Origin: Streptomyces sp. TG1A-8
GTDB taxonomy: Bacteria > Actinomycetota > Actinomycetes > Streptomycetales > Streptomycetaceae
DNA length: 64,000 nt
Direction of reading: 5' to 3'
Assembly: GCF_030499535.1 (NCBI RefSeq)
Contig: NZ_JASTLB010000001.1
Coordinates: 5,518,001 to 5,582,000 of the forward strand
Below, in pieces: positions 37,507 to 45,114 of the stretch; position 1 is the first letter of the stretch, and the number at the start of each line of letters is the position of its first letter. The notes under the pieces were generated by a model. That model made no database searches. It was not told the origin of the DNA and saw only the letters and a program-made list of their open reading frames with translations. The translations under genes were made by a program, and so were the position numbers.

Positions 37507-37944
37507 TCAGCTCTGGTTGAAGAAGCCGTCCTCGCGGTGGGCCGCGGGCTCACCGCTGACGATCTGGGTGTTCGCGGGCGTCAGCAGGAAGACCCGGTTC
37601 GCGACCCGCTCGATCGTGCCTCTCAGGCCGAAGGTCAGCCCGGCCGCGAAGTCGACGACACGCTTGGCGTCGGCGGGCTCCATCGCCGTGAGGTTCATGA
37701 TGACCGGGATCCCGTCCCGGAACAGCTCGCCGATGGCGCGGGCGTCCCGGAAGCTGTCCGGGGTGACCGTGCCGATCCGCCGGCCCCTCTCCTCGGCCGT
37801 GTCCGTGGCCACCCTCACCCGGGGGTCCGTGACCCAGGCGTCCCCGGACCCGGTGCCCTCGGTGTACTCGTCGTCGTAGTAGCGCTCGTCATCGTTGTCG
37901 TCGACGAGGCCGAGCCACGCACTCGCCTTGCGTACCGATCCCAT
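37507..37944 (-). CDS. sflA: SepF-like cell division protein (SflA type)
   Basis: A 145-residue SepF-family protein. The N-terminal membrane-targeting helix is [20 protein letters not shown], followed by an acidic linker ([11 protein letters not shown]). The SepF core then has [60 protein letters not shown]. SepF anchors FtsZ at the membrane. Streptomyces has one SepF in the division cluster and two SepF-like paralogs; the position beside a DUF5685 gene fits the one named SflA in S. coelicolor, from memory. ATG at 37944 follows GAGAGGAGG. Confidence 0.88.
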
Positions 37945-38256
37945 GGACGCCTCCTCTCACAGCGGTCTTCCTTGCTTTCCGCATCCCTATGGTCATCCAT
38001 GATGCGGACGGCGCGCCAAGTGGATAGTCGCCGCGCGGGGGGTTTGTGACGCTACTGGTGCACAGGCGATCCGTCGAGAGTCCTTGTGCCCCAAGGGTCG
38101 TGACTCATACGGCTGCTGACTGTGAGTGAAATATGATTGTCGTTGGCGGACGGGTGAGGCGCGGTGCGTACGGGTGAACGCGGCGCCTCGTACGAGCAGA
38201 CAGTCGGCCGATACGATGCCGCGGCTCAACACCGCGCCACACCGCGGGGAATCGTC
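37945..38256. promoter_or_regulatory. Divergent control region of sflA and the DUF5685 gene
   Basis: A 312-base region, AT-richer than its surroundings. TATGAT at 38132-38137 is a consensus -10 on the plus strand, without a clear -35. No small gene is apparent. Confidence 0.4.
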
Positions 38257-39399
38257 GTGTTCGGAATCGTCAGACCGTGCGGCCACCGGCTCGGGAAGGG
38301 CCTCACGGCCCAGTGGGCCGCGCACTTGTGCGGGCTCTGCCTCGCCCTGCGCGAGGACCACGGGCAGCTCGCCCGGGTCGTGACGAATTACGACGGGCTG
38401 CTGCTCTCCGTCCTGACGGAGGCTCAGACCGGCACGGCCGGCGGGTCCCGGCGGACGGCGGGGCCGTGCGCGCTGCGCGGGCTGCGGACGGCGTCCGTCG
38501 CACAGGGTGAGGGCGCGCGGCTCGCCGCCGCCAAGGTGCGCGACCACGTCGCCGACCGGGACGGACTGCTGGCCCGCCGGCCGGTGGCGGCCGCGGCCCG
38601 CCGGGTCGCCGAGAGCTGGGGGCGGGCCGGGGCGCGCGGCGGCTCGGCGGTCGGCTTCGACACCGGCGTCCTCCTCGACGCCGTCGACCGGCAGGGCGGC
38701 ATAGAGGCCCGGGCCGGCCCCGGCACCCCGCTGCTCACGGTCACCGAGCCCACCGAGACCGCCACCGCGGCGGCCTTCGCGCACACCGCGGTGCTGGCCG
38801 GGCGGCCGGGCAACGCCGCACCGCTGGCCGAGGCGGGCCGCCTCTTCGGGCGGCTCGCCCACCTCCTGGACGCCGTCGAGGACCGGGAGGCCGACGCCGC
38901 GGCGGGCGCATGGAACCCGCTCGCCGCCACCGGCACCCCCCTCACCGAGGCCCGCCGGCTCGCCGACGACGCCGTGCGCGGCATCCGGCCGGCCCTGCGC
39001 GGGACCGGGTTCGCGGACGGCCGGCTCGCCCACCTGCTGCTCGTGCACGAACTGCCGCGCTCGGTGGACCGCGCGTTCGCCACCCGGACCTGCGCCCACG
39101 CGCCCGAGGCCTCCTTCGGGCCGCCCCCGGGCCGCCACGCGCCCAAGGCGCCGGCGCACCCCCGCGGCAACCCCTTCGGCGGTGAACCGCCGCGCCCGGA
39201 CAAGCGGGGCCTGTGGGCCGGGTGCGCGGCCGCCCTCGGGCTGTGCTGCACCTGCAAGGTGTGCTGCGCCGACGAGTTCGAGGGCCCCTGGTCGCGCAAG
39301 AAGCGCAAGGGCTGGTGCGACGGCTGCGACTGTTCGTGCTGCGAGGCCTGTGAGTGCTGCGAGTGCTGCGAGTGCTGTTCGTGCTGCGACGGCTGCTAG
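38257..39399 (+). CDS. DUF5685 family protein with a cysteine-rich tail
   Basis: A 380-residue protein. The N-terminus has the family pattern FGIVRPCGHRLGKGLTAQW, HLCGLCLALREDHGQLARVV. It includes a CxxC and His residues that could bind metal. The middle is helical. The last 55 residues are extraordinary: about 24 cysteines in runs such as LCCTCKVCCADEFEGP and CDGCDCSCCEACECCECCEC. Family function is unknown; metal binding or membrane anchoring by the Cys cluster is possible. GTG at 38257 has GGGGA five bases upstream; the frame is open further 5'. Confidence 0.83.
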   Translation: MFGIVRPCGHRLGKGLTAQWAAHLCGLCLALREDHGQLARVVTNYDGLLLSVLTEAQTGTAGGSRRTAGPCALRGLRTASVAQGEGARLAAAKVRDHVADRDGLLARRPVAAAARRVAESWGRAGARGGSAVGFDTGVLLDAVDRQGGIEARAGPGTPLLTVTEPTETATAAAFAHTAVLAGRPGNAAPLAEAGRLFGRLAHLLDAVEDREADAAAGAWNPLAATGTPLTEARRLADDAVRGIRPALRGTGFADGRLAHLLLVHELPRSVDRAFATRTCAHAPEASFGPPPGRHAPKAPAHPRGNPFGGEPPRPDKRGLWAGCAAALGLCCTCKVCCADEFEGPWSRKKRKGWCDGCDCSCCEACECCECCECCSCCDGC

Positions 39400-39454: not shown

Positions 39455-40402
39455 TCAGTTCCCCAGCTCCGGCGGGCTGATCTCCGACCTGCTGATCGCC
39501 GAACCGGTCGTCCCCCACTTCTTCAGGATCCTGGCGTACGTGCCGTCGGCGATCAGCCTGTCGACCGCGGCCCGGAAGGCCGGCGCCAGCCGGGTGCCCT
39601 TCCGGAAGGCGAAGCCGACGTCCAGGCGGCGGAACTCGTTGAGGAACTTCAGGCCCCGCTGGTGGGCCACCGCGTAGCGCAGGCCGTTGATGGTGGACAT
39701 CACGACGTCGCTGCGGCCCTGCTGGACCGAGGACCAGACCGCGCTCGGCTCGGAGTACGCCTGCACCCGGTACGCCTTCCTGCCCGCGTCCGCGCACACG
39801 TGCTCGTTCTCCTCCAGCGTGGCCTCGAAGGTCGTGCCGGCGCCGGTGGCGACGTTCAGGCCGCACAGCTGCTTCAGGTCGGTGATCCGGGACAGCCCGC
39901 TGTCCTCGCGGGTGGCGAAGCCCTGTCCGTCGTTGACGTAGGTGACGAAGTCGATGGTCCTGCGGCGCTCGTCGGTCACCCCGAAGTTGCTGGCGCCGAC
40001 GTCGTACTTGCCGCTGTCCAGTGCGGGCAGGATCGCCTCGAAGCTCGCCTGCTCCACCTTCAGCCGGAGCCCCAGCACCTTGGCGACCGCCTCGGTGAAG
40101 TCGACGTCCTGCCCGGTCAGGGTCTTGCCGTCGGGCAGGTAGGTGGTGCCGGGCGGCGTGCCGCCGACGCTGATCGCGACGGTGAGCCGCGTGACGCCCG
40201 CGGGCAGCAGCCGCGCGGCCGCGCCGTCCTCGCGGACGGCGGAGACCACGTCCGTGGTCGGGACCCCGTCGGCCCGCGCGGCGACGCCGGCCGCGCCGGT
40301 TCCGGCCGGGCCTCCGGAACCCGAACCGCAGGCGGTGAGGAGGAGGACGGACGACGTGATCGCGGCAAAAGGCACAAAAAGCCGATAGGTGGGCGTGCGC
40401 AT
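39455..40402 (-). CDS. ABC transporter substrate-binding lipoprotein, family 3 (amino-acid type)
   Basis: A 315-residue lipoprotein. The lipobox LLLTACGSG puts the lipidated Cys at residue 25. The SBP_bac_3 domain shows LTVAISVGGTPPGTTYLPDG, DVDFTEAVAKVLGLRLKVEQ, KYDVGASNFGVTDERRRTID and FVTYVNDGQGF. It should deliver a polar amino acid or related compound to the permease encoded divergently. A short leader ORF ending in Cys lies upstream in its transcript, which suggests control by cysteine supply and so a sulfur-containing substrate (inference). Confidence 0.9.
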   Translation of the reverse strand: MRTPTYRLFVPFAAITSSVLLLTACGSGSGGPAGTGAAGVAARADGVPTTDVVSAVREDGAAARLLPAGVTRLTVAISVGGTPPGTTYLPDGKTLTGQDVDFTEAVAKVLGLRLKVEQASFEAILPALDSGKYDVGASNFGVTDERRRTIDFVTYVNDGQGFATREDSGLSRITDLKQLCGLNVATGAGTTFEATLEENEHVCADAGRKAYRVQAYSEPSAVWSSVQQGRSDVVMSTINGLRYAVAHQRGLKFLNEFRRLDVGFAFRKGTRLAPAFRAAVDRLIADGTYARILKKWGTTGSAISRSEISPPELGN

Positions 40403-40521
40403 GGGGAAGCGGTCTCCTGGGAGCGGAAGCGGGCGGAGCGCGAGGGGAGGGGTGCGCGTGTGAAGGCGGGGAGGAAGAGAAAGGAAGAAGGGGGGATGAG
40501 GAGAAGGGGGAACGCGCAGGC

Positions 40522-40541
40522 CGCCCGCTCAGGAGGCGGGC
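40522..40541 (-). promoter_or_regulatory. Hairpin between leader peptide and lipoprotein gene
   Basis: On the minus strand GCCCGC pairs with GCGGGC around CTCCTGA. It begins about 16 bases after the leader stop codon, where an attenuator or sequestering structure would be expected. The stem is short, so this is tentative. Confidence 0.4.
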
Positions 40542-40556
40542 ACGCAGGGGGTCAGC

Positions 40557-40628
40557 TCAACAGGACGAGGACCACACGCGACCGAAGTCGATGTGGGAGC
40601 GGGTGACCAGCCACTGCTGTGGACGCAT
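40557..40628 (-). CDS. Putative sulfur-responsive leader peptide, 23 aa
   Basis: ATG at 40628, TGA at 40557-40559. The peptide ends TRSHIDFGRVWSSSC, with Cys as the last residue. This matches the actinobacterial leader peptides with an H-[IV]-D-x-x-R-V pattern and terminal cysteines that lie upstream of sulfur-assimilation and transport genes and sense cysteine through translation. It lies 155 bases upstream of the lipoprotein start codon on the same strand. It is short, so coding is supported by motif rather than statistics. Confidence 0.72.
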   Translation of the reverse strand: MRPQQWLVTRSHIDFGRVWSSSC

Positions 40629-40699
40629 GGCCCAAGTGGAACAGGCATCCGATGTCACGTCAACCGCCCTGAGACGTCCGGCTCACAGTGCGGACACCC

Positions 40700-40730
40700 T
40701 TGACAGCGCACCGAAACGCCCGCGTACCCT
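40700..40730 (+). promoter_or_regulatory. Putative promoter of the permease operon
   Basis: A consensus TTGACA (40700-40705) and TACCCT (40725-40730) spaced 19 bases apart. It would give a leader of about 130 bases before the permease ATG. Confidence 0.45.
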
Positions 40731-40867
40731 CGTCGGGCGGCCCTGCTGAGGGGCTCGGCCGTGTCCGCGCCGCGAGGCGCTCCCGTGTGAAGGCACCACC
40801 CGTGTTCGTTCCCCGCTCCCGGCCCCGGTCGAGCGGGAGGGACTCCCAGCCGCCACGGAGCCTTCGC

Positions 40868-41725
40868 ATGTCATCCGACACCCTCGCCCAAGTCCCCGCC
40901 GCCCCCGAGGCGTCCGAACACGCGGACGCCCTCAGGACCGTCCCGCAGCGCCGTCCCGGGCAGTGGGCGGCCGCCGTCGCCGTCCTGGTGCTGCTCGCGC
41001 TCGCCGTCACCTCCGTCCTGCGCAACAAGGCGTTCCAGTGGGACGTGGTGGCCGACTACTTCGCCTCGGACTCCGTGCTGCGCGGACTGTGGCTCACGCT
41101 GTGGCTGACCGCGGTGGTCATGGTCCTCGGCTTCGCCCTCGGCACCCTGCTCGCCGCGTTCCGACTCTCCGCCAACCCCGTGCTCCGCTGGGTCGGCCGG
41201 GGCTACGTGTGGCTGTTCCGTTCGATCCCGCTCCTGGTGCAACTGCTGCTGTGGTTCAACATCGGCGCCCTGTACCCGCGGGTCCTCGGGGTCAGGACGG
41301 TCGACCTGCTCAGCCCGGTCGCCGTCGCGATCGTCGGCCTCACCCTGCACGAGGCCGCCTACGCCGCCGAGGTCGTCCGAGGCGGCATCCTCTCCGTGGA
41401 CCGCGGGCAGGTCGAGGCCGCCCAGGCGCTCGGCCTGAGCCGGCGGCGGCGCTGGTGGCGCATCGTGCTGCCGCAGGCCATGCGCTCCATCGTGCCGCCC
41501 GCCGGCAACATGCTGATCGGCACCCTCAAGGGCACCTCCATCGTCAGCGTCATCGCGGTCGACGACCTGCTGTTCTCCACCCAGTTGATCTACCACCGCA
41601 CCTATCAGGTCATCCCGCTGCTGATGGTCGCCACCCTCTGGTACACCGCCGTCACCTCGGTGCTCGGCGTCGGCCAGTACTACGTCGAGAGGCACTACGC
41701 GCGCGGCACGGAGGCCGCACGATGA
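40868..41725 (+). CDS. ABC transporter permease, amino-acid (HisM/GlnP) type
   Basis: A 285-residue inner-membrane permease with about five helices. The polar-amino-acid permease pattern is clear: VLRGLWLTLWLTAVVMVLGF, WLFRSIPLLVQLLLWFN, and the EAA loop EVVRGGILSVDRGQVEAAQA, LGLSRRRRWWRIVLPQAM. ATG at 40868; the frame is open upstream, but this start fits the family and follows CGGAG. Its TGA overlaps the next ATG. A single permease implies a homodimer. It works with the lipoprotein encoded divergently and the ATPase two genes downstream. Confidence 0.92.
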   Translation: MSSDTLAQVPAAPEASEHADALRTVPQRRPGQWAAAVAVLVLLALAVTSVLRNKAFQWDVVADYFASDSVLRGLWLTLWLTAVVMVLGFALGTLLAAFRLSANPVLRWVGRGYVWLFRSIPLLVQLLLWFNIGALYPRVLGVRTVDLLSPVAVAIVGLTLHEAAYAAEVVRGGILSVDRGQVEAAQALGLSRRRRWWRIVLPQAMRSIVPPAGNMLIGTLKGTSIVSVIAVDDLLFSTQLIYHRTYQVIPLLMVATLWYTAVTSVLGVGQYYVERHYARGTEAAR

Positions 41726-43479
41726 AGCCGCAGCTGGTGATCGTGGGAGCCGGGCCGCGGGGGACCGGACTGCTCGAACGCATCGCCGCCAACGCCCCCG
41801 ACCTGTACGCCGGTTCGTCCCTCGACATCCACCTGGTCGACCCCCATCCGCCGGGCGGCGGCCGCATCTGGCGCGAGGCGCAGTCACCGCTGCTGTGGAT
41901 GAACTCGCACGCCGAGGACGTCACCATGTTCACCGACGAGACGGTGGCCATGGACGGCCCGGTGCGCGCGGGCCCCACCCTGCACGAGTGGGCCGGCCTG
42001 GACGGCCGTACCTTCGCCGACCGGCGGATCCAGGGCCGCTACCTGCGGTGGTGCTACGAGCGGGCGGTCGCCGAACTGCCCCCGGGCATCACCGTCCACC
42101 ACCACCCCCGGCGCGCCGTGCGGATCGGCGGCCCGCGCGGGGGACGCCAGCAGGTGTGGCTGGAGGGCCGCCCGCGCCCCCTGCTCGCCGACCTGGTCGT
42201 CCTCGCCCTCGGCCACCTAGACTCCGAACCGGACGACGAGCAGACCGGGCTGGCCGCGTACGCCCGCGCCCACGAACTGGTCCACCTGCCGCCCGACTTC
42301 ACCGCCGACAGCGACCTGTCCGCGCTGCGGCCCGGTGAACCCGTCCTGGTACGGGGCTTCGGGCTGGCCTTCGTCGACCTGATGGTGCTGCTCACCGAGG
42401 GCCGGGGCGGACGGTACGAAGGGGACGCCTACGTTCCCTCCGGCCGCGAGCCGGTGCTGTACGTGGGCTCACGGCGCGGGGTGCCGTACCACGCGAAGAT
42501 CGGCTACGACTGGACCGGGGAACGGCCGCCGCTGCCCCGCTTCTTCGGCCCCGACGAGGTCCGGGCGCTGCTGGCCAGGCCCCAGGGGTTCGACTTCCGC
42601 GCCGATGTGTGGCCGCTGGTGGAGAAGGAGCTGGGCTTCGCCCACTACCACCGGCTCTTCACCGCCCACGCCGGGCGCACGGCGATGGACTGGGCCGGCT
42701 TCGAGGAGGAGTACGCGGCCGCCACCGGCCCCGACGAGGTCCGGGCACTCGTCGCCGCCGCCGTGCCGGACCCCGCCGACCGCCTCGACCTCGCAGCGCT
42801 CGACCAGCCCCTGGACGGGGTGCGGTACGCCTCGCACGAGGAGTTCCAGGAGGGCCTGCGCGGGTACGTCGAGGCGGACCTGACCCGCCGCCACGACCCG
42901 CGCTTCAGTCCCGACCTGGGCGTCTTCCTCGGACTGCTGTCCGTCTACGGGCAACTGGTGCGGCTCGGGAACGTGGGTCCCCGGTGGCACGGATTCTTCA
43001 GTTTCCTGGCGTCCGGCCCCCCCGGACCCCGGCTGCGGCAGATGCTCGCCCTGTCCCGGGCCGGTCTGCTGAGGTTCGTCGGCGCCGGCATGACCGTCAC
43101 CGCAGAGGACGGGGTGTTCCGGGCGGCCAGCGCGACCGTGCCGGGGTTCTCCGTCGAGGCGCGGGCGCTGGTCGAGGCACGGCTGCCCGAGCCGACCGTG
43201 GCGCGCGCCCGCGACGGCCTGCTGCGGGAGCTGCACGCCGACGGTGCCGCCGAGACCCCCGACGGGCTGCTGCGCGTCGACCCCGCCGACGGCCGGATCC
43301 TCGACGGCGCCGGCCGCCCGCACCCGAGGCGCTTCGCGCTCGGCCCGTACACCGACGGCCGCACCCCCGGCGCCTTCACCCGGCCGCGCACCGGCGGACC
43401 CGCGTTCCGGCAGAACGACGCCACCGCCCGGGCCGCCCTGTCCTTCCTGCGGGAGCGGGCCGACCGCGCCGCCGCCTGA
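41722..43479 (+). CDS. FAD/NAD(P)-binding protein (NAD_binding_9 type) inside the ABC operon
   Basis: A 585-residue flavoprotein-like enzyme. The N-terminal Rossmann motif is QLVIVGAGPRGTGLLERIAA, with PHPPGGGRIWREAQSPLLWM, then a second dinucleotide region near LVVLALGHLDSEPDD and VRGFGLAFVDLMVLLTEGRG. The C-terminal half is mostly helical and lacks known motifs. Proteins of this type are poorly characterised oxidoreductases. Its ATGA coupling to the permease and position before the ATPase mean it should act on, or prepare, the transported substrate (inference). No signal peptide. Confidence 0.85.
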   Translation: MKPQLVIVGAGPRGTGLLERIAANAPDLYAGSSLDIHLVDPHPPGGGRIWREAQSPLLWMNSHAEDVTMFTDETVAMDGPVRAGPTLHEWAGLDGRTFADRRIQGRYLRWCYERAVAELPPGITVHHHPRRAVRIGGPRGGRQQVWLEGRPRPLLADLVVLALGHLDSEPDDEQTGLAAYARAHELVHLPPDFTADSDLSALRPGEPVLVRGFGLAFVDLMVLLTEGRGGRYEGDAYVPSGREPVLYVGSRRGVPYHAKIGYDWTGERPPLPRFFGPDEVRALLARPQGFDFRADVWPLVEKELGFAHYHRLFTAHAGRTAMDWAGFEEEYAAATGPDEVRALVAAAVPDPADRLDLAALDQPLDGVRYASHEEFQEGLRGYVEADLTRRHDPRFSPDLGVFLGLLSVYGQLVRLGNVGPRWHGFFSFLASGPPGPRLRQMLALSRAGLLRFVGAGMTVTAEDGVFRAASATVPGFSVEARALVEARLPEPTVARARDGLLRELHADGAAETPDGLLRVDPADGRILDGAGRPHPRRFALGPYTDGRTPGAFTRPRTGGPAFRQNDATARAALSFLRERADRAAA

Positions 43480-43514
43480 CCCCCGATCCGCCTCCCGAGA
43501 AAAGGAACCCCGCG

Positions 43515-44276
43515 ATGACCGTCATGGTCGACATCAGGTCGGTGCACAAGAGCTTCGGCTCCCTGGAGGTCCTCAAGGGCATCGACCTCCAGGTCCGCGC
43601 CGGCGAGGTCACCGTCGTGCTCGGCCCCTCCGGTTCCGGCAAGTCCACGCTGCTGCGCGCCGTCAACCACCTGGAGAAGGTGGACCGGGGGGCGGTCAGC
43701 GTGGACGGCGTGCTCATCGGCTACCGGCGCTCCGGCGACAAGCTGTACGAACTGCCCGAGCGCGAGGTGCTCCGGCAGCGCACGCACATCGGCTTCGTCT
43801 TCCAGAACTTCCACCTCTTCCCGCACCTCACCGTGCTGGACAACGTCGTCGAGGCCCCGGTGTCCGCGCTGAGGCGGCCCCGCGGGCAGGCCGTGCGGGA
43901 CGCCCGCCGGCTGCTGGAGCGGGTGGGGCTCGGCGACAAGGCCGACGCCTACCCCCGGCAGCTGTCCGGCGGCCAGCAGCAGCGCGTCGCCATCGCGCGG
44001 GCGCTCGCCCTGGAACCGAAACTGCTGTTGTTCGACGAGCCGACCTCGGCGCTGGACCCCGAGCTGGTCGGCGAGGTGCTCGATGTCATCCGGGACCTGG
44101 CCCGGCAGGGCACGACGATGATCGTCGTCACGCACGAGATCTCCTTCGCCCGGGAGGTCGCCGACACCGTGGTGTTCATGGCCGACGGCCGGATCGTCGA
44201 GCAGGGGCCGCCCGACGAGGTGCTGGGCGCTCCGCGCGAGGAGCGGACACGGGCGTTCCTGGCGAAGGTGCTGTGA
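43515..44276 (+). CDS. ABC transporter ATP-binding protein, amino-acid type
   Basis: A 253-residue ATPase of the GlnQ/HisP group. Walker A is VVLGPSGSGKSTLLRAVNHL, the Q-loop HIGFVFQNFHLFPHLTVLDN, signature QLSGGQQQRVAIARALA, Walker B LLLFDEPTSALDPELVGEVL, and switch His in VVTHEISFAREVAD. An insert of about 10 residues (YRRSGDKLYELPE) after the first beta subdomain is slightly unusual. ATG at 43515 follows AAAGGAA. It completes the transporter with the upstream permease. Confidence 0.94.
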   Translation: MTVMVDIRSVHKSFGSLEVLKGIDLQVRAGEVTVVLGPSGSGKSTLLRAVNHLEKVDRGAVSVDGVLIGYRRSGDKLYELPEREVLRQRTHIGFVFQNFHLFPHLTVLDNVVEAPVSALRRPRGQAVRDARRLLERVGLGDKADAYPRQLSGGQQQRVAIARALALEPKLLLFDEPTSALDPELVGEVLDVIRDLARQGTTMIVVTHEISFAREVADTVVFMADGRIVEQGPPDEVLGAPREERTRAFLAKVL

Positions 44277-45114
44277 GGGAGGGCCGCCCCGGGGCGCGCC
44301 GCGCCCGGCGCCGCCGGCCCCGGCCGCCGTGCCCGCCGGCGCGGCGCGGCGCGACGGTCCCCGCGTCCTGCGGCCCGCTCGCGCCGACCGTCCCACTGCA
44401 TCGGAGGGCTTTTCGGAAGGGCGACTTCCGGACACCCCCGGAACACGGGTGACGGATGAGCACGGAGCGCCGCCCACCGCCGTCCAGGGCCGACGGCCCG
44501 GCCCTGGACGGCCATCCCCGCGGGGGAGGCCCGGCCGGGCGCCGGCCCCGGTCCAAGGGTGCGGGCACGGGTCGCGCCCGGCGGGGAACGGCTGGTCGTG
44601 CCGGTCCGCGAGGGGGTCCGGGGGTGCGGGTGCACGGCCCCGGTCGGCGGGCCGCCGCGCCTTCCGGGGCATCGCGGCCACCCCGTACGACCCGCGCCGG
44701 CCGGTGCCCGGACGCTGCACGCCGCACGGCGCCACCCGCACCGCGTGCGCCGGCGACGCCGACGGACGGGAGCGCGCCCCGCCCCCGCCGGCGCCTCGCC
44801 TTCTCCGACCCCGGCATCCGCCCCCGCCCGGCGCCGGGCAGCCGGCCGGACGCGGCCGCCGGGGCCGCGGCGGAGCGCACCCCGCGCCGGACCTCACGCC
44901 CGTCCGTCGTGGAAGCTGAACGCGCGTAGTGCGGGGGACGGTCGAGGACCGCACGGCCGAAAGGCACCCTTGCGCCGACCGTCCGTTCGGCCGAATACTC
45001 CCCCTCAGCGCTTGTCAGGGGCATGTACGTTCGGAACCCTGGTACCGACCCTGGCTGCGCCTCACGGGCCCCGACCCCACGCGGCCCCCGACTTCCCCTG
45101 GGAGGGAACGACAA
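44277..45114. other. Long intergenic region, 838 bases
   Basis: I see no supported gene. Open frames here are Arg/Pro/Gly-rich in every direction, as expected from random very GC-rich DNA. GGAAG-GCGA-CTTCC near 44416-44433 is a small hairpin. The last 170 bases probably hold the protease promoter. Confidence 0.4.

Follow-up and report, generated by a model that had tools for sequence, protein, structure and literature searches.

A cysteine-codon leader conserved beside an ABC importer and flavin enzyme locus of Streptomyces, and retained in relatives without the lipoprotein gene

Short leader open reading frames (ORFs) that respond to cysteine are known in mycobacteria. According to the accessible part of PMC4633059, a short ORF with Cys near its C terminus precedes sulfur genes at nirA/Msmeg_4527 and cysA2/Msmeg_5788 (see also Canestrari 2020, as cited in the accessible part of PMC9031893). 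Leaders of this kind were also predicted before the cys and cbs operons of Actinobacteria, where they lack an intrinsic terminator and Rho was proposed (Seliverstov 2005; accessible text of PMC1262725). The use of organic sulfur has been described in Bacillus subtilis, in which S-alkylcysteine salvage (CmoO/CmoJ) and the yxe route work by acetylation and oxidation, as outlined in the available sections of PMC10863075 and PMC9706529. Here, we analyzed a stretch of 64,000 nucleotides (nt) from Streptomyces sp. TG1A-8 (contig NZ_JASTLB010000001.1, positions 5,518,001 to 5,582,000; hereafter the window, the numbering of which is used below). It contains a 23-codon leader ORF with a single Cys codon, which lies between a lipoprotein gene and a divergent operon for an ATP-binding cassette (ABC) transporter and a flavin enzyme. 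We found that the leader and its Cys are conserved in relatives, that leaders of the same family precede organosulfur genes, and that the leader is retained in a number of relatives in which no lipoprotein gene lies behind it.

The locus sits in a genome of 7.66 Mb. The leader (MRPQQWLVTRSHIDFGRVWSSSC; minus strand, 40557..40628) has as its sole Cys codon a TGT immediately before the TGA stop codon. The gene for a family-3 substrate-binding lipoprotein (minus strand, 39455..40402; PF00497, E 2.8e-26) starts 154 nt past the leader on the same strand. The divergent operon on the plus strand encodes an ABC permease of the polar amino-acid type (40868..41725; PF00528, and TIGR01726 above its cut-off), an enzyme that binds flavin adenine dinucleotide (FAD) and NAD(P) and is a diverged relative of L-aspartate N-hydroxylase (41722..43479; PF13454, match to 8cp2/8cp5), and an ABC ATPase (43515..44276; PF00005), for which the nearest NCBIfam model is L-cystine TcyN (NF008428, E 2.6e-96, below its cut-off). 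The start of the enzyme overlaps the stop of the permease as ATGA. With a family-3 binding protein, a three-transmembrane (3TM)-type permease and an ATPase, the window importer has the components of a polar amino-acid ABC importer. An earlier note on this DNA had described a 23-codon minus-strand ORF ending SHIDFGRVWSSSC upstream of the lipoprotein gene, as well as the divergent order of permease, ATGA-coupled FAD/NAD(P) enzyme and ATPase, and both descriptions were borne out by the ORFs and domain matches.

We searched 199 genomes of the genus with the enzyme and listed, besides the window, 103 loci at 54% identity or more; weaker matches continue below this level. Ninety of these ortholog loci were fetched, mostly with about 5 kb per side, together with 10 loci of weaker homologues (paralogues). 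The core of the leader was defined by the pattern [any]ID[FL][GC]RV[WC], which demands neither His nor Cys. The core was present in 88 of the 90 fetched ortholog loci as well as in the window; it was not found in the ortholog loci L115 and L118, nor in any of the 10 paralogue loci. All 89 leaders (88 loci and the window) have Cys at the identical place, and one (L119) has Tyr in place of His. For the 13 other ortholog loci, coordinates, which do not report on Cys, show the 26-base core at no more than about 1.5 kb from the enzyme in every case; in all, the leader adjoins the enzyme in 101 of the 103 listed ortholog loci. A set of 80 loci from named records (79 Streptomyces and one 'Actinobacteria bacterium', partly the same genomes) gave the leader in 79, and the sole miss is a contig of 3.2 kb. 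The substitutions among the leaders are mostly at third codon positions of the leader frame. On this conservation we rejected a chance ORF, and the leader is real. It has the characters of a cysteine leader, being short, with Cys near the stop codon and with sulfur genes downstream in its family; the earlier note had made its proposal depend on a conserved Cys in close relatives, and this test does not refute it. The NCBIfam model leader_Ms4527A (NF042936) matched the window leader with E 1.1e-4 and 21.7 bits, under its cut-off of 45, and no Rfam family was found in the window at the gathering score. A second Cys, two places before the conserved one, is present in 17 of 88 leaders. In the leaders of L110 and L120, the core Gly and Trp are changed to Cys (HIDFCRVCSAAC), giving extra Cys codons.

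Three further ORFs in this genome match the leader pattern, and all of them precede organosulfur genes; labels such as SsuD-like, here and below, rest on BLAST or hidden Markov model matches, several of which are below curated cut-offs. One leader is followed by two NtaA/DmoA-type monooxygenases (one above and one below the cut-off), with a TauD-family gene nearby, another by SsuC- and SsuB-like genes and an SsuD-like gene (below the cut-off), and the third by SsuE (above the cut-off) and an SsuD-like gene. Within the genus, the leader core with at most one mismatch occurs in 128 of the 199 genomes, including positions away from the enzyme and genomes where the enzyme is missing. Among 20 such copies picked by hand from the listing, the first gene on the same strand is SsuD-like in 10, SsuE-like in two, GNAT in three and LLM1, a luciferase-like monooxygenase, in one; two of the other four face a DUF5685 gene, one is at a contig end and one is unclear. 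In the group of ortholog loci at about 55% identity (L108-111, L114 and L116-120), an SsuD-like gene stands between the leader and the lipoprotein gene in nine of ten, and an SsuA match with a second leader of its own lies downstream of the enzyme in six of ten; SsuA of L108 scores above the cut-off. By eye, the GNAT protein after the leader of L154 starts like the SsuD-like enzyme (MSVEFLGTAATDDDS) and is possibly a fusion remnant. The sulfur setting proposed in the earlier note is thus strong, as judged from the neighbor genes of the leader family, and the locus very probably serves sulfur scavenging.

In 27 of the 90 loci, no lipoprotein match was found opposite the enzyme, and 24 of these 27 retain the leader on its usual strand (orphan leaders); very small genes may have escaped the gene caller behind these counts. 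In 22 of the 24, the gene that comes next is convergent, at a distance of 37 to 681 bp, and is DUF5685 in 14 and, by eye, GTPase-type in seven and kinase-like in one. Of the remaining two, L067 has SepF as its next gene, on the same strand at a distance of 606 bp, and L093 reaches the contig end. The first permease is also missing in 23 of the 24 loci. On the enzyme tree, the presence and absence of the lipoprotein gene require 15 changes, at least seven of which are forced by well-supported branches, as counted by a quick method that does not distinguish losses from gains. Nine pairs of orphan leaders were compared over a 17-codon core with about 38 nonsynonymous sites: six pairs have no nonsynonymous change and three have one, at synonymous divergences (dS) of the enzyme of 0.07-0.60. 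This core was selected for being conserved, and the N-terminal codons of the leader vary more. Behind the orphan leaders, the best match to a lipoprotein remnant was only E 0.16, and permease-like matches, down to E 0.013 (L088), were all short or weak. The enzyme start in L034 and L067 resembles, by eye, a permease start (MSSDTLA-type), and the permease there may have been lost by in-frame deletion. Even where a lipoprotein gene does not follow, the leader seems to be maintained by selection, while the flanking genes on both sides are lost. The control of the lipoprotein gene, as put forward in the earlier note, agrees with the window, where this gene does follow; however, cis-attenuation of the lipoprotein gene cannot be the whole function of the leader, and the orphan leaders call for an additional function or an unseen target.

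The leader is also frozen at the nucleotide level. Among the 88 loci, Gly is GGT in 86, Val is GTG in 88 and Cys is TGT in 88, as compared with 9%, 39% and 17% use of these codons, respectively, in the genes called in the same loci; the wobble base of Arg varies freely. A codon-blind search that covered 293 genomes of the order listed 150 matches, of which 146 have GGT and all have GTG; among these 150 listed cores (more exist), four with GGC and one with ATA each disrupt one pair of a candidate hairpin. The fixed bases of this hairpin read CCACAUCGAC-UUCG-GUCG-n-GUGUGG, and the wobble base of Arg bulges out (minus strand, 40572..40596; as a DNA dyad, CCACATCGAC-TTCG-GTCG-n-GTGTGG). Alone, it gave -12.1 kcal/mol with a z-score of -3.45. 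Within the 72-nt leader ORF (z -0.54), it is in the centroid and absent from the minimum-energy fold, and within 129 nt from the leader ATG (z -1.79), it is in the minimum-energy fold. Of its ten pairs, the outermost is intact in 105 of 108 leaders and each of the other nine in at least 107; the set is biased by 20 leaders that were gathered by nucleotide pattern. No covariation support was obtained among the 108 leaders, in which the stem is invariant, and by eye the hairpin or dyad was not seen in the other leaders found in this genome. The frozen codons fit a UUCG hairpin or, equally, a DNA dyad.

The enzyme matches L-aspartate N-hydroxylase (8cp2/8cp5) over residues 5-573 with E 9e-95. We aligned 87 sequences (the window and 86 orthologs; L094, L111, L115 and L118 were dropped). 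The cofactor and catalytic residues are kept: Arg13 in 84, Trp51 in 86, and Asn62 and Arg577 in all 87. Arg266, Arg276, Arg409, Arg412, Asn413 and Arg416, to which the accessible part of PMC10404684 assigns the binding of sulfate or aspartate, are kept together or singly in none of the 87, and the window enzyme has K, P, a gap, Y, G and V at these places. Among the paralogues, L125 and L127 keep all six, and L122 keeps Arg409 only. Since all six binding residues are replaced, we rejected L-aspartate N-hydroxylase as the identity of the enzyme; by homology, it would be a class B monooxygenase with another substrate, and to call it an S-oxygenase is a guess. The earlier note inferred that it oxidizes or reduces a sulfur compound; for an L-aspartate N-hydroxylase relative with an altered substrate site, such an oxidation is possible. 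The lipoprotein keeps the TDER region and has no acidic residue aligned to the Asp of AncQR. A free amino acid may therefore not be its ligand, and a compound that lacks a free amino group is hinted at; an S-substituted cysteine-like compound is a tentative candidate that we would not yet back over the alternatives.

Many relatives carry LLM1, a second luciferase-like monooxygenase (LLM2) and DUF1684 after the ATPase gene. Other relatives have an additional permease and binding protein, and individual genes are absent from scattered loci. LLM2 of L032 scores above the cut-off of TIGR03860, and its nearest solved structure is YtnJ (E 1.3e-63), which we take to be CmoJ. A GNAT gene is present in 22 of the 90 ortholog loci and is absent from the window locus. 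In the window, no LLM1 or LLM2 match was found at E 1e-3, and DUF1684 is represented by a remnant (plus strand, 44416..44772; 40% over 131 positions, residues 49-168 of 269, E 2e-14); a Pfam search of the ORF at this remnant gave no match. As LLM1 and LLM2 are lost and DUF1684 is a remnant, the window layout is a reduced form. The order of permease, enzyme and ATPase is as first described, and it looks like the remainder of a longer organosulfur locus that included DUF1684 and both luciferase-like monooxygenases. At about 1.13 Mb, this genome encodes a pair of monooxygenases of that class, which have a Cys leader of their own.

In the 150 nt after the leader, C exceeds G more than 1.5-fold in 84 of the 88 loci (60 of 64 plus 24 of 24), compared with 104 of 625 called gene ends. 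The corresponding stretch of the window (minus strand, 40407..40556; C 0.53, G 0.19) is a candidate Rho-binding region; in an ungapped view, conservation beyond about 40 nt past the core is below 70% in most columns. By eye, TTGACG at 40658..40663 (minus strand), 35 nt 5' of the leader ATG, is a possible -35 hexamer. A consensus scan of 40380-40900 found no promoter-like or terminator-like site; since no terminator-like site was found around the leader, leader-linked termination is likely to proceed via Rho, the factor proposed for other actinobacterial Cys leaders.

We propose the following model. When Cys-tRNA is plentiful, the ribosome would complete the leader and depart at the stop codon, the C-rich RNA would be exposed, and transcription would end, probably by the action of Rho. 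When Cys-tRNA is scarce, the ribosome would stall at the single rare TGT and shield the C-rich RNA, and transcription would enter the lipoprotein gene. The leader would also tune the divergent operon via the shared promoter island, a coupling that we favor because this operon is the constant neighbor of the leader. The importer and the monooxygenase would handle an organosulfur compound, for which an S-substituted cysteine, or else a thioether or sulfonate related to it, is the most likely candidate. We regard the reading as a whole, an organosulfur importer and class B flavin monooxygenase with the leader as cysteine sensor, as probable, and hold to cysteine sensing by ribosome stalling with Rho a shade less firmly. 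Several observations speak against this model: the leader has a single Cys codon and no Cys run, the whole leader RNA folds no better than shuffled sequences, the scan showed neither promoter nor terminator, the leader stands without a lipoprotein gene behind it in 24 of 90 relatives, the acidic residue expected from AncQR is missing from the lipoprotein, and, with LLM1 and LLM2 missing, the window enzyme may be idle or may depend on the monooxygenase pair elsewhere in the genome.

The frozen nucleotides lend themselves to another explanation. The leader island would act chiefly at the DNA level, as an operator or a bidirectional element of the divergent operon, with a sulfur regulator recognizing its near-palindrome and the peptide being of secondary importance. 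The constancy of GGT and GTG, both in the 88 loci and in the codon-blind search, would follow from this, as would the 24 orphan leaders, and the leaders that lie on the strand of the enzyme (L101) or of LLM1 (L144) are compatible with an orientation-blind site. Yet the substitutions respect the leader frame, being mostly synonymous with the Arg and Thr wobble bases free, Cys and its TGT codon are invariant outside the dyad, and the other leaders of this genome share the peptide pattern without the dyad; we therefore consider an operator rather unlikely. The survival of the 24 constrained leaders, with at most one nonsynonymous change in the pairs compared, could likewise reflect a small RNA or peptide that acts in trans. 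This is a much weaker prospect than the operator, as the same leader elsewhere directly precedes ssuD-like and ssuE-like genes in the fashion of a cis-leader.

The reduced state of the window raises the further possibility that this copy is decaying and that its pathway has ceased to work, because the transporter and enzyme are left without LLM1, LLM2 and DUF1684. The losses in the window fit such decay, and other relatives lose other members of the gene set; on the other hand, the frames of lipoprotein, permease, enzyme and ATPase are intact, and the monooxygenase pair with its own leader is available elsewhere in the genome. We regard decay as unlikely, slightly more so than an operator. The least credible of these explanations, which can nearly be set aside, is that the enzyme does act as L-aspartate N-hydroxylase and that a nitro compound is the product of the locus: the near full-length match to 8cp2/8cp5 favors it, but the six binding residues are kept in none of the 87 sequences.

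An extension of the stalling model concerns the neighboring genes. In the window, a DUF5685 gene (plus strand, 38164-39399) is convergent with the lipoprotein gene, and a SepF gene (minus strand, 37507-37944; PF04472) lies beyond it; SepF also adjoins the locus in many fetched relatives. The DUF5685 proteins at the locus have a tail very rich in Cys (15-27 among the 70 C-terminal residues in 52 genes), and read-through from the leader in the window would be antisense to the DUF5685 gene. The leader might be a two-way switch, in which stalling sets read-through on the leader strand, and this read-through affects the divergent operon through supercoiling or coupled promoters and serves as antisense to the convergent gene. 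Because 14 of the 24 orphan leaders face DUF5685 with its Cys-rich tail, such a switch would also turn a Cys-rich protein off. We consider this speculative and improbable, less so only than a product acting in trans or a nitro-forming locus. If true, scarce cysteine would turn scavenging on and the Cys-rich protein off via one small ORF.

These results suggest that one leader family, in which a single Cys codon is conserved and a hairpin-like sequence is frozen, spans several sulfur-scavenging gene sets of a Streptomyces-type genus. The retention of the leader without its presumed target, in 24 of 90 loci and across at least seven state changes, allows a direct experiment on a function beyond cis-attenuation. 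The enzyme may be a natural example of an aspartate N-hydroxylase scaffold that was adapted to a different substrate, perhaps one that contains sulfur.

In a literature search, in which most subscription papers were beyond reach, we found no report of this leader or of a leader kept without its gene. The mycobacterial leaders resemble the window leader as short ORFs that precede sulfur genes and have Cys close to their C-terminal end; in contrast to them, the window leader has one Cys codon instead of a run and a frozen UUCG hairpin or dyad, and it is kept without the gene in 24 loci. The predicted actinobacterial leaders share with it the lack of an intrinsic terminator and the proposed role of Rho, but the present family precedes organosulfur genes. 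With the CmoO/CmoJ and yxe systems, the locus has in common an amino-acid ABC importer and, in relatives, two luciferase-like monooxygenases (LLM2 being near YtnJ) and, in 22 of 90, GNAT; it differs in the added class B flavin enzyme, DUF1684 and Cys leader, and the window itself is without the monooxygenases and GNAT. The L-aspartate N-hydroxylase of Streptomyces sp. V2 (8cp2, 8cp5; accessible part of PMC10404684) and the window enzyme are homologous over the length of the fold and share Arg13, Trp51, Asn62 and Arg577, whereas the residues of the aspartate entry chamber are replaced in the window enzyme. Finally, the ssu alkanesulfonate genes carry the same leader elsewhere in the genus, and relatives of the leader in this genome, whereas the importer in the window is of the polar amino-acid type.

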